DNA from: a virus
Strand: one strand, 5' to 3'
DNA length: 29,495 nucleotides
Virus record (IMG/VR): IMGVR_UViG_3300045741_000166
Location: 1 to 29,495 of that record
Shown here: positions 22,929-26,796 of the stretch, one piece after another
Layout of the letters: each line of letters begins with the position of its first letter
Numbering within the stretch: the stretch's first letter is position 1
The notes under the pieces: generated by a model
Told to the model about the DNA's origin: nothing
Databases searched by the model: none
What the model saw: the letters and a program-made list of their open reading frames with translations, nothing else
Position numbers and translations under genes: made by a program

Positions 22929-23279
22929 TTATGGCACCGCTGTCGCATACACGTTGTCAAGTTTTACTCTGACAACTGTATCGCTATTTACAGTTGATTT
23001 AACTGCAACGCCAATCGGGAAATATCCGGTTGCGCTCAGTTTAACCAGTTTATTGACGTTGTCCCAATAAACATGATCGCCCTCGGCATGCGAGGTTGCG
23101 GTTGTTGATTTTGGCAATTCAACCACGCCCTCAGAAATTGCGCCAAATTTTTCGCCGACCAAATGCGTTGATTGGGCGACTACAAATAGCCCGCCAATCA
23201 TATAACCAACGCCAGAAGTGACCCCGCCGCTTGGCGCGGTCAGGGTAAGTGTATCGTCATCGTGCATGAAACCTTTCAT
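22929..23279 (-). CDS. DUF2190 head protein, possible capsid decoration protein, 116 aa
   Basis: DUF2190 features are visible: HDDDTLTLTAPSGGVTSGVGYMIGGLFVVAQST, then GEKFGAISEGVVELPKSTT, EGDHVYWDNVNKLVKLSATGYFPIGVAVKS and VRVKLD. Members lie just after the major capsid gene in many tailed phages and are thought to be capsid cement or head fibre proteins with a small beta-barrel; this is family knowledge, not shown here. It has an ATG start 29 nt after the capsid gene stop. Confidence 0.82.
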   Translation of the reverse strand: MKGFMHDDDTLTLTAPSGGVTSGVGYMIGGLFVVAQSTHLVGEKFGAISEGVVELPKSTTATSHAEGDHVYWDNVNKLVKLSATGYFPIGVAVKSTVNSDTVVRVKLDNVYATAVP

Positions 23280-23308: not shown

Positions 23309-24682
23309 TTAAACGCCCGTTGATTTTTGTAAACCGCGATAGTCGATTGCTTTTGCCGCAAGGTCGATACGACATTTAATTTTCATGCCCTCAACGTCAA
23401 ACAACGAATCGCTTTCGATAACCGGTCCAACCTCACCTGATAGTCTCGCCAATTCTACAATGTCTAATTGTTGAATGTCGGCAGTTAAAAAATATGCCGT
23501 TGTTGACGCGCCAGCGTTGAAAACGCTATCGGACAACCGTGGCTCAACTGCAATTTTGATTGAACCTACAAACGGGTTAACGTTTGAAACCTGGGTTGCG
23601 GAAATTGGCGCAATGATTTGTTGCGCTTTTGTTTCTAACTCAGGTGGTACAAAAAGCCAGGTTGGTGTGAGGTTGATACGCGCACCATTTAGGCCTTTTT
23701 GTTTTCTCATTGCTTGGCGTAGTGGGCTCAAAGAGCTCGCATCGGACAGAGCACCCGATTGCAAGTTTGAATGGCTTGCATGAAACAAAGCAATACTATC
23801 GGCCAAAGCCGCATTGCTCAAAATAACGCCCCAAACTAGGTCGCTCTCTTTTTCAGCCGCTCTAACACCAAACAATTGAGGCAATCTTACAAATGCATTT
23901 AGGTCGTCATTTATAAGTGCTTTTCTAGAAACGCGAACCATTTTCGCATAGGTTTCTAGTTGATATTTTTCAGCCGTGTCGCTCACTGTACCGGAAACGA
24001 TTGGGCCGCCTTCCGGCACTAGCTCCAATTCAGGCGCATCGCCAAAGGAAACAACTGAGCGTTGTTTGAAATCAGGTATTTCTACCTCGCGGGTGATTGG
24101 TTGAAATACTTTTGGCGCTGCCATATAGGCGTCGCGCAAAACTTTGTTTAAAACATTTTCTAAGAGTGACGGGAAATCGGAAATGGAATGGAGCCCACCG
24201 CCGCCGTCTCTCACTTTCAAATCAAACATGGTGCGAGTAAGTTTCTCGTTGTTCATGCCTCTGGTTTTTACGCCGCCGGCCTCTAAACAATCGCGAACCA
24301 TTTCGCAAAGAGACATGCCACGAAATTCGCGGCCAAGGTCTGTTAGTTTATTGTGTACAGAATCGGCTCTGTGCATCAAAGCCTCGAAATAGCCTTTCAT
24401 GCGGCTATCATTCTCGTCTCTGGTAACAACTGCATTTGCATTTGTTGTACGGGTTTCTGGTTTAACTGCCAGTTTTTCTAAAATGAGTTTTCGAGCCTCA
24501 TCAATTGTCGTACCTTTTTCAATGAGCTCGTCAGCGAAATCGCGCAATTCAACTGCCGCGCACGCCGATTTAATTTCTTGTACACGCTTGCGCTCTGTTT
24601 CAACGCCGCGCTTTTCAGCGTCCAAGTCAATTTTAACCTCTGGTTGCGCCGGTGTAACAGGCGCTTTTGTCTCAACTGCCAT
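23309..24682 (-). CDS. Predicted nested major capsid product from an internal start, 457 aa
   Basis: Within the protease-capsid frame an ATG at 24682 is preceded by GAGGAG with a 9-nt spacing, one of the best ribosome sites in the window, and it falls exactly in the linker after the protease domain (residue 203 of the long form). Translation from here would give a scaffold-like helical segment plus the capsid shell domain without the protease. This would supply the hundreds of capsid subunits a head needs against few protease copies, as lambda makes Nu3 from an internal start in gene C. It is inferred from sequence only. Confidence 0.55.
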   Translation of the reverse strand: MAVETKAPVTPAQPEVKIDLDAEKRGVETERKRVQEIKSACAAVELRDFADELIEKGTTIDEARKLILEKLAVKPETRTTNANAVVTRDENDSRMKGYFEALMHRADSVHNKLTDLGREFRGMSLCEMVRDCLEAGGVKTRGMNNEKLTRTMFDLKVRDGGGGLHSISDFPSLLENVLNKVLRDAYMAAPKVFQPITREVEIPDFKQRSVVSFGDAPELELVPEGGPIVSGTVSDTAEKYQLETYAKMVRVSRKALINDDLNAFVRLPQLFGVRAAEKESDLVWGVILSNAALADSIALFHASHSNLQSGALSDASSLSPLRQAMRKQKGLNGARINLTPTWLFVPPELETKAQQIIAPISATQVSNVNPFVGSIKIAVEPRLSDSVFNAGASTTAYFLTADIQQLDIVELARLSGEVGPVIESDSLFDVEGMKIKCRIDLAAKAIDYRGLQKSTGV

Positions 24683-25288
24683 AACAATTTTCTCCTCGTT
24701 ATGATTGCGAAAAATTAATTCACAATGGTTTTTAAGATCACTATTACGAACCTGTGCGCCAGAATCGGCGGGTACTGTAACAAAACTTATTTCGGCAGGC
24801 GTCCAATCGGTCGCCAAAAAATGCCGCGTGCCGTCCTCTAAAGGTTTTTGCTCTTCAAATTTATTAATTTGATAGCCAACGGAAATATTTCTAATAATAC
24901 CGTCTTGAATATCTTTTATAATTGATTGTACCTCGGGACGATTTGAGAAACGAATGGTTGCGAGCCCCTCGTTTCCTTGAATGCGAGCATTTTCAACCAC
25001 ACCCAAAACGTCATTTAATGATTGTTGGCCGTGATTATTTAAAACGCTTGCGCCTTTATTTAAACGCTCAAGGTTTGCGCCTTTTACGCTCAATTCTTCA
25101 ATGAATTTTGAGCCTGAAAACCAATCAAAGCGCCTTACTTTTGCGCCCGTTGTAAAAACAACGTCAATCGTCCTTTTTTCGGCATTAAAAGTACTTGGCG
25201 AAAATTGAGCAAGGCGTGTGAGTGATTCAATTTGCATTGATTTTTTATCACCCAGGTTTTCTGCCTGGTTTTCTAATTTCTCTGCCAT
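23309..25288 (-). CDS. Prohead protease/major capsid fusion protein, 659 aa
   Basis: Residues ~20-185 are an HK97-type prohead protease: FSPSTFNAEKRTIDVVFTTG, LNNHGQQ with candidate catalytic His86, IIRNISVGYQ with Ser136, and WTPAEISFVTVPAD with Glu166. The spacing His-50-Ser-30-Glu matches the HK97 gp4 pattern. Residues ~220-290 are a charged helical region (DLDAEKRGVETERKRVQEIK) like a scaffold/delta domain. Residues ~295-659 form the capsid part (FKQRSVVSFGDAPELELVPEGG, VWGVILSNAALADSIALFHASHSN, GARINLTPTWLFVPPELETKAQQI). Such protease-capsid fusions are known in phages. The ATG has GAGGA upstream and overlaps the portal gene by 16 nt. Confidence 0.92.
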   Translation of the reverse strand: MAEKLENQAENLGDKKSMQIESLTRLAQFSPSTFNAEKRTIDVVFTTGAKVRRFDWFSGSKFIEELSVKGANLERLNKGASVLNNHGQQSLNDVLGVVENARIQGNEGLATIRFSNRPEVQSIIKDIQDGIIRNISVGYQINKFEEQKPLEDGTRHFLATDWTPAEISFVTVPADSGAQVRNSDLKNHCELIFRNHNEEKIVMAVETKAPVTPAQPEVKIDLDAEKRGVETERKRVQEIKSACAAVELRDFADELIEKGTTIDEARKLILEKLAVKPETRTTNANAVVTRDENDSRMKGYFEALMHRADSVHNKLTDLGREFRGMSLCEMVRDCLEAGGVKTRGMNNEKLTRTMFDLKVRDGGGGLHSISDFPSLLENVLNKVLRDAYMAAPKVFQPITREVEIPDFKQRSVVSFGDAPELELVPEGGPIVSGTVSDTAEKYQLETYAKMVRVSRKALINDDLNAFVRLPQLFGVRAAEKESDLVWGVILSNAALADSIALFHASHSNLQSGALSDASSLSPLRQAMRKQKGLNGARINLTPTWLFVPPELETKAQQIIAPISATQVSNVNPFVGSIKIAVEPRLSDSVFNAGASTTAYFLTADIQQLDIVELARLSGEVGPVIESDSLFDVEGMKIKCRIDLAAKAIDYRGLQKSTGV

Positions 25289-26796
25289 ACGTCCTCATTA
25301 TTTTCATTTAGGCTTTGAGTGCCTAATGTTGGTTGTTGGGTATTATTGTTGGGTTGTTCGATTCCGCTGCCAGTAATTTTGCGCGGGTCGGTGTCAAGTG
25401 TCAAGCCCAACTGATCAAGCGTCTCATTGGTTTTTGCAATTTGCTCATAGTGCTCTTGAGGATCCTTGCCCATTTCAAGTATGGTATCGTCAAGGCTTTG
25501 GAGCCCGCCACGGATCGCAGCTATTTTTGCCGAAGTCTCTCTTGTCGGGTCAATCATTTCGCGTCTTGGGGGGACCCAAGTTACAAGTGTATCTTCGACA
25601 ACTCTGACACCCATCACACCAGCCAATTGCAGAAACCAATAAAATACGCCGTCGTTTAATTGTGGGTTCAAAATTGTTGCTCGCCAAAGATCAATGTTGC
25701 GGCCAAACTCAAGCCAACCCATACGCGCACTAGAAAAATTAACTTGGCTCAAATTTCCTGAGAGCGATTCAAAAGAGAGCCCAAGGCCCGTTGCGATTGA
25801 TTGCAACATTGCATTGACGTAAGTGTCATAACCTTCAACGCCAGGTGGCGAGGCAAACTTGACATCTTTTCCAGGCGGCAAAAATTCAATAATGCCTGGC
25901 TCTAAATTTGAGCCGAGTTCTGTCTGAGTTGTTTGTGTGTCGTCGATCATTTGCCCGTCATAAACAAAGACAGAAAAACATGCAGCGATTTTCTGGCGCA
26001 TTAATTGTGCGTCCTCGAAATCGTCTAAGTCTCTTAGTCTCATCATAACGGATGTGAGCCAAGGTATGCCGCGCATTTGCCCAGGGCGATCGGCCCGGTA
26101 AACGTGCAAAATTTCCTCGGCGGGTATTCTGATCACCTGCAAACCTTGGCCCGTCATATTGAAACTGTCTTGGTTTCCAGGGTGCATTTTAAACATGTGA
26201 TAGGCAATGCGCCTTTGTGTGTCTTTGTCTATTTCAATGCCTTGAATGATTGGATTGCCGTTGTTTGCTTTGTAGCTTTGATAGGTCGCTAGAAAATCGG
26301 ATTCTAAAACTTGGAGTTTTAGCGGAAAAGTGCCATCCGATTGTGGCTGTACAAATTTTCTAACGAAACACTCGCCCGATTCTGCGACGGCTTCCATAAC
26401 AATCTTTTGCATTCCCGCAAAAGTATGTTGGCCCTCAATATCGCAATCGGTTGAATTGGCCCAATCGTCCCAAACTTTTTGCAAGCCTTTATCTTTAATG
26501 TTGGCGCGAATGCCTTTGCCAACAACATTTGAGCCAATGATTCTTATGCCGCGTTGAGCATAGGGATTGTTTCTTACGAGCTCGCGTGAGCGGTTTCTTA
26601 AAACATGCAAGGCCGCTTTGTTTTCAGTATTTGCACTTGTGCCCGTTGCCTGCCAACCAGCCGTGCGCCTAGAATTGGCGGCAGCGTCAAATTTTCTTGT
26701 TTCGCTCTTGATTGCAGCGTTTAAACGGTCGTATTTTATGCGGGTATAGGCCGCTTTTGGGCTGAAAAAACCGATTAAACTATCAAACCAAGTCAT
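25273..26796 (-). CDS. Portal protein, lambda gpB family, 507 aa
   Basis: This is a lambda-type portal (Phage_portal_2): NRSRELVRNNPYAQRGIRIIGSNVVGKGI at ~68-96, AESGECFVRKF, IPAEEILHVYRADRPGQMRGIPWLTSVMMRLRDLDDFEDAQLMRQKIAACFSVFV at ~222-276, and GLGLSFESLSGNLSQVNFSSARMGWLEFGR, all family landmarks. It forms the dodecameric ring at the capsid vertex through which DNA enters. The ATGA start overlap with gpW and the lambda-like order (terminase, W, portal, protease) support the call. The C-terminal ~35 residues are Asn/Gln-rich and likely disordered. Confidence 0.95.
   Translation of the reverse strand: MTWFDSLIGFFSPKAAYTRIKYDRLNAAIKSETRKFDAAANSRRTAGWQATGTSANTENKAALHVLRNRSRELVRNNPYAQRGIRIIGSNVVGKGIRANIKDKGLQKVWDDWANSTDCDIEGQHTFAGMQKIVMEAVAESGECFVRKFVQPQSDGTFPLKLQVLESDFLATYQSYKANNGNPIIQGIEIDKDTQRRIAYHMFKMHPGNQDSFNMTGQGLQVIRIPAEEILHVYRADRPGQMRGIPWLTSVMMRLRDLDDFEDAQLMRQKIAACFSVFVYDGQMIDDTQTTQTELGSNLEPGIIEFLPPGKDVKFASPPGVEGYDTYVNAMLQSIATGLGLSFESLSGNLSQVNFSSARMGWLEFGRNIDLWRATILNPQLNDGVFYWFLQLAGVMGVRVVEDTLVTWVPPRREMIDPTRETSAKIAAIRGGLQSLDDTILEMGKDPQEHYEQIAKTNETLDQLGLTLDTDPRKITGSGIEQPNNNTQQPTLGTQSLNENNEDVWQRN

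Follow-up and report, generated by a model that had tools for sequence, protein, structure and literature searches.

A conserved Shine-Dalgarno and start codon at the protease/scaffold junction of fused protease-capsid genes in tailed phages: a probable internal translation start

Nested starts in head protease genes are known for the phages lambda and Mu. In lambda C/Nu3, one frame encodes a head protease of the S49 family at the N-terminus, and an in-frame internal start gives the protease-free C-terminal part. Mu likewise has an annotated internal start in its protease gene (Z, 'start site internal to gene I'). HK97 gp4/gp5 and Faecalibacterium phage FP_Epona keep protease and capsid as two genes with a stop between them, in the same order as in the gene described here and with an N-terminal scaffold region on the capsid. 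Because the stop separates the two genes, these phages need no internal start for two products. The Gifsy-2-type tripartite ClpP-scaffold-capsid gene and MD8 gp5 have the same tripartite order in one frame. The MD8 paper describes a protease-capsid fusion gene, and its section on the fused gene makes no mention of an internal start (PMC8508860). Annotation treats a fused protease-capsid gene as encoding a single protein, and this creates a puzzle, namely one protease for each capsid subunit (about 420 in a T=7 head).

We describe such a gene in the IMG/VR virus record IMGVR_UViG_3300045741_000166, of which the whole stretch of 29,495 bases was analyzed (hereafter, the window). The junction between its protease and scaffold-capsid parts very likely holds a working internal ribosome-binding site, consisting of GAGGAG, nine nucleotides and ATG (minus strand, 24697–24680). 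Two products would thereby be made from the one gene and the dose of protease would be lowered. The same signal is retained by hundreds of phages that are distant relatives.

The fused gene and its probable internal start

The fused gene (23309–25288, minus strand) encodes a 659-aa protein, assigned with Pfam and PHROG as an S78-type prohead protease, a scaffold region and a PF25209 HK97-fold major capsid protein. Pfam placed PF04586 (prohead serine protease S78) at residues 65–184 and Phage_capsid_4 (PF25209) at residues 369–655, and the best PHROG was phrog_4523 ('major head and protease protein', E 1.7e-203). One frame runs from an S78-type protease to PF25209, which makes the gene a fusion of the phrog_4523 type. 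It is not one with a lambda-type S49 protease, as its N end is PF04586 and Pfam gave no CLP_protease match. The surroundings are those of a normal head operon, with the portal gene (25273–26796) upstream, a Phage_cement_2 protein (22929–23279) downstream, and terminase, decoration protein, head-tail attachment and tail genes as neighbors. The end of the portal gene and the start of the fused gene overlap by 16 nt (window 25273–25288), and the full-length form may therefore arise via translational coupling to the portal. An Rfam search of the window returned no RNA element.

The AlphaFold model of the 659-aa protein (48-sequence alignment, mean pLDDT 81.6, pTM 0.56) revealed, in order along the minus strand, a protease-like domain at residues 34–177 (24758–25189), a disordered linker with pLDDT below 50 at residues 178–220 (24629–24757), a helical, delta-domain-like scaffold region at residues 222–354 (24227–24625) and an HK97 fold from about residue 372. 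The capsid domain as delimited with PF25209 and Foldseek covers residues 369–659 (23312–24184), and its Foldseek matches are phage capsids, HK97 and Mu among them. Invariant alignment columns in the protease domain give H86, S136 and E166 as candidate catalytic residues.

On the minus strand the junction reads 5'-AACGAGGAGAAAATTGTTATGGCAGTTGAG-3', in which the Shine-Dalgarno sequence (SD) GAGGAG (24697–24692) is followed by a 9-nt spacer and an ATG (24682–24680), codon 203 of the 659-codon frame 25288–23309. This is the arrangement that the original prediction had claimed, and AACGAGGAGAAAATTGTTATGGCA is found in the window as given there. The claim that the site lies where the protease ends and the scaffold and capsid begin also held, since the S78 match ends at residue 184, PF25209 begins at residue 369 and the low-pLDDT stretch lies between the domains. 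Met203 sits midway in the disordered linker and, therefore, a product begun there would lose exactly the protease. The proposed nested gene (23309–24682, minus strand) would encode a 457-aa scaffold-capsid protein without protease and corresponds to the capsid gene that stands alone in split relatives. The window gene thus combines an SD and an in-frame start codon at the boundary of protease and scaffold, an arrangement for which lambda Nu3 and Mu Z were the positive controls.

To score an SD, we computed the duplex energy between the 3' end of 16S rRNA (CACCUCCUUA) and the 16-base stretch that extends from 5 to 20 nt ahead of a start. At the internal site this was −8.9 kcal/mol, compared to −5.0 at the start codon of the full-length product (25286–25288), which is preceded by a weak GAGG at 25296–25293. 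The annotated nested starts, by the same measure, are of comparable strength (lambda Nu3, −6.9; Mu Z, −7.4). The original claim that no start in the operon surpasses the site in strength was a slight overstatement: it ranks fourth among the 34 minus-strand ORF starts in the window, and three score higher (−9.5, −9.5 and −10.6). Within the fused gene it is the strongest of the 35 in-frame ATG, GTG and TTG codons. A pairing of SD and ATG by chance in this single gene would have several opportunities, the gene having 12 in-frame ATGs; yet only 3 of the 835 ATGs on both strands of the whole window reach −8.9, and the site recurs in all relatives. The likelihood of chance is practically nil, this reading being refuted by the conservation described below. 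As judged from the sequences, the internal SD-ATG of the window gene is not due to chance.

Conservation and nucleotide-level constraint at the junction

A search of viral contigs with the single sequence gave no relatives, whereas a search with a family alignment did recover them. In that alignment (14 members, 29–37% identical to the window protein) the junction Met is present in every member, though the linker itself cannot be aligned. To the phage records and the window we added 160 further loci from viral and bacterial genome contigs. The gene is one open frame in 176 of the 177 loci; the exception (L079), with a frame broken in the protease, was set aside. Dereplication left 76 genes at 70% identity and 37 at 50%.

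A start codon was found in the linker of all 76 representatives (<70% identity), as ATG in 72 and as GTG with an SD in four, for example GCAAGGAGCAGCCC-GTG in L041 and AAAGGAGAAAGAA-GTG in L140. The number of ATGs per linker is underdispersed, with 4 linkers lacking an ATG against the 23 expected from a Poisson distribution of the same mean. The best junction ATG has an SD with dG ≤ −5 in 87.5% of cases, compared to 18% of the 925 in-frame ATGs found elsewhere in these genes, and with dG ≤ −8 in 40%, compared to 1.7%. The SD is weak (> −5) in 9 of the 72 representatives with a linker ATG, and two of them (L088 and L131) are essentially without one. The original prediction had named conservation of the SD in relatives as its check; the site survived it, as most relatives carry the SD.

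Two observations on individual loci are of note. L131, from a Chitinophagaceae bin, keeps the junction ATG without an SD. Bacteroidota rarely use SDs, so that this locus is consistent with an internal start; it is a possible natural control, as one case. Several Rhodobacterales prophage loci (L102, L101, L106, L110 and others) have two SD-bearing in-frame ATGs in the linker, approximately 23–30 codons apart, as in the pair AAGGAGCATCCCCG-ATG and GAGGAGACCACC-ATG of L102. These pairs are possibly two nested starts.

The constraint on the site was evaluated at the level of nucleotides. For the first ATG of each linker, taken irrespective of its SD, the seven preceding codons were recoded synonymously with the gene's own codon use. 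The sample consisted of 34 genes from the 37 representatives that are less than 50% identical. The larger set contains p-values equal to 1 and Stouffer's method is unusable there; the Wilcoxon test and the smaller set were used. The SD at the first linker ATG is stronger than in the synonymous recodings (mean −6.5 vs −4.6; Wilcoxon p 1.4e-5, Stouffer p 1.6e-3), and 470 other ATGs showed no such excess (−2.65 vs −2.84). The test for a single gene reached p < 0.05 in 5 of the 34 genes; the per-gene values being mostly non-significant, the signal is a collective one, seen in aggregate. As a control for composition, all codon positions of each linker were ranked by SD strength, and the first linker ATG stands at a median of 6.5%.

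These data bear on a constraint at the level of protein, by which an acidic or Lys/Glu-rich peptide with its Met would be a processing or docking motif of the protease, and the SD would arise from the codons of that peptide as a side effect. Glu and Lys are indeed common at positions −3 and −4 before the junction Met. Yet the junction SD is found in all three codon phases (44/14/6) and hence encodes different, unrelated peptides; the GAGGAG stretch, for one, encodes NEEKIVM in the window and RGEDGM in its closest relative, L018 (53% identity). A peptide motif also does not account for SDs stronger than their synonymous recodings, nor for GTG (Val) in place of ATG in the four representatives. 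We regard the protein-level reading as highly improbable.

The details of the site speak in the same manner to a different role for the purine stretch. Ribosome pausing has been proposed for SD-like sequences at domain boundaries, and the AlphaFold model does place the site at such a boundary; a pause there could let the protease domain fold ahead of synthesis of the capsid part, and the Met would be incidental. The spacing from the AAGGAGG register to the ATG clusters at 4–8 nt, however, and a pause needs neither a start codon at this distance downstream nor a GTG in place of a lost ATG. The residue after the junction start is start-like (A/S/T/P/D/E/K/N in 92%, compared to 53%), and the site has less local structure than do other ATGs (p 6e-21) or random linker codons (p 6e-4). 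A pause requires neither this second residue nor an open local structure, and we consider it very unlikely that pausing explains the site.

Split relatives and other fusion architectures

The separate S78 protease and PF25209 capsid genes of FP_Epona, the latter with TAGGAGG at its start, allow the junction to be compared with an undisputed gene boundary. Among Epona and 80 related contigs, 71 are split, 4 are fused and 6 are without a protease in the stretch that was analyzed. In the split members the protease stop adjoins or overlaps the capsid start (median gap −1), and the median SD is −11.6. The start of the split capsid gene occupies the same place as the internal start of the fused genes. 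The fused locus L394 and the split locus L400 are 84% identical over the capsid, and their junctions differ by an indel of about 1 nt. In L400 the junction is TTCAAGGAGGTAAAAGGAGCATGA, where the protease stop TGA overlaps the capsid ATG; in L394 it is CTCAAGGGAGGTAAAAAAAACATGA, one base longer, by which the frames are joined while SD and ATG are retained. This retention across a one-nucleotide difference suggests that the internal start originated as the start of a separate capsid gene. The difference between L394 and L400 lies beside an A8 run. It may represent a recent fusion or a slippery site that makes both forms; because of the run, it is also possible that the L394 fusion is an error of sequencing or assembly. 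Further fusions of different sequence are found in L411 and in L419/L422, with SDs of −12.8 and −11.6, respectively.

An origin of this kind raises the possibility that the SD and ATG are a relic of the separate capsid gene, no longer used, such that only the 659-aa protein is made and the protease is controlled by slow folding or late activation. The site does have a historical source, as the split relatives start at the same place. Yet the linker is hypervariable, and in it the start codon is present in 76 of 76 representatives and the SD in most, with constraint at the synonymous level. Decay would be expected across lineages less than 50% identical and in three architectures; the site was kept instead. 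A relic is thus unlikely, and we favor a site at which ribosomes initiate.

The second architecture joins a ClpP/S49 protease to PF25209. A linker start was found in 19 of 19 representatives, and most of them have an SD-ATG 20 codons past the ClpP domain, with an SD near −6 (synonymous p 2e-5). In these genes a conserved Met at the end of the ClpP domain is the first in the stretch, and the unbiased test on the first ATG is uninformative there; the best-ATG and synonymous tests apply, both of which pick the ATG by its SD. The peptide around the start is conserved and the codon phase of the SD is constant, which is in favor of the protein motif discussed above. As the peptide is conserved and the ATG was picked by SD, constraints on nucleotides and on protein are not fully separable in this family.

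In the third architecture an S78 protease is joined to PF05065 (VP882, ep3, RcCronus and others). The linker has an ATG in 51 of 52 representatives; the remaining one has a GTG whose SD scores −10.3. The first ATG has dG ≤ −5 in 84%, compared to 14.5% of other ATGs (synonymous p 2e-8). The gene of Vibrio phage VP882 (EF057797, 2468–4366) is such a fusion, with an internal SD-ATG at codon 185; it is annotated only as 'putative phage-related protein'. None of the approximately 25 annotated fused records examined lists the nested product, whereas the lambda and Mu records list Nu3 and Z. The surmise that the internal site is a general but under-annotated feature of fused protease-capsid genes is supported by the linker start codons in 76 of 76, 19 of 19 and 52 of 52 genes of the three architectures. 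Internal capsid starts are likely to be near-universal in the fused protease-capsid genes of tailed phages, across at least three architectures, with the nested start setting the dose of protease. Fused and split operons would then be two forms of one two-product system, and a single indel where stop and start overlap would turn one into the other.

Two proposed products from one gene, in relation to known systems

In the mechanism that we propose, the mRNA of the fused gene would be read from two starts, a weak one upstream (25288) and a strong internal one (24682). The upstream start would give the 659-aa protease-scaffold-capsid protein as the minority form, and the internal start the 457-aa scaffold-capsid precursor without protease. 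Both products would share capsid and scaffold, and would co-assemble; therefore, a minority of the subunits in each prohead would bear the protease, the 659-aa form carrying it inside via its own capsid part. The protease would then remove the scaffold and itself. On joining of the two frames, the stop codon between protease and capsid would have been lost and the capsid start kept. We infer that ribosomes use the internal site, that the two products differ in amount and that they co-assemble, and initiation at this site would lower the ratio of protease to capsid. Phages with the fused gene very probably make, from one gene, many protease-free and fewer protease-bearing shell subunits.

A conserved internal start would answer the puzzle of the protease excess, and predicts a capsid precursor of about 50 kDa that annotation pipelines have missed. 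This bears on the definition of the capsid precursor for structural work, on prohead expression and on searches of proteomics data. Protease dosage becomes genetically testable by removal of the internal start, and the internal start accounts for a possible passage between the split and the fused form in which function is preserved. Outside the Gifsy-2 capsid paper (Effantin et al. 2010), which may discuss an internal start, the literature searched contained no report of one in fused protease-capsid genes.

The comparison with the described systems defines what is distinct about this locus. In lambda the nested product Nu3 is the scaffold only and the capsid protein E is a separate gene, and in Mu the capsid gpT is a separate downstream gene. 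The window does not have this arrangement of a nested scaffold alone with the capsid in another gene, as its predicted nested product contains the capsid domain; its protease, furthermore, is S78-type and that of lambda is S49. The Gifsy-2-type gene and MD8 gp5 differ from the window gene in protease family; S49-PF25209 relatives share the internal SD-ATG. Epona has an S78-type protease as in the window, and its capsid gene begins at the homologous junction. The minority of protease-bearing subunits proposed here is what HK97 and lambda achieve by separate or nested genes, and lambda (C/Nu3) and Mu (I/Z) likewise obtain a protease-free partner from a protease gene. Nested starts were already known from lambda and Mu; what sets the present case apart is a nested start whose product would be the capsid itself, common to three fusion architectures.
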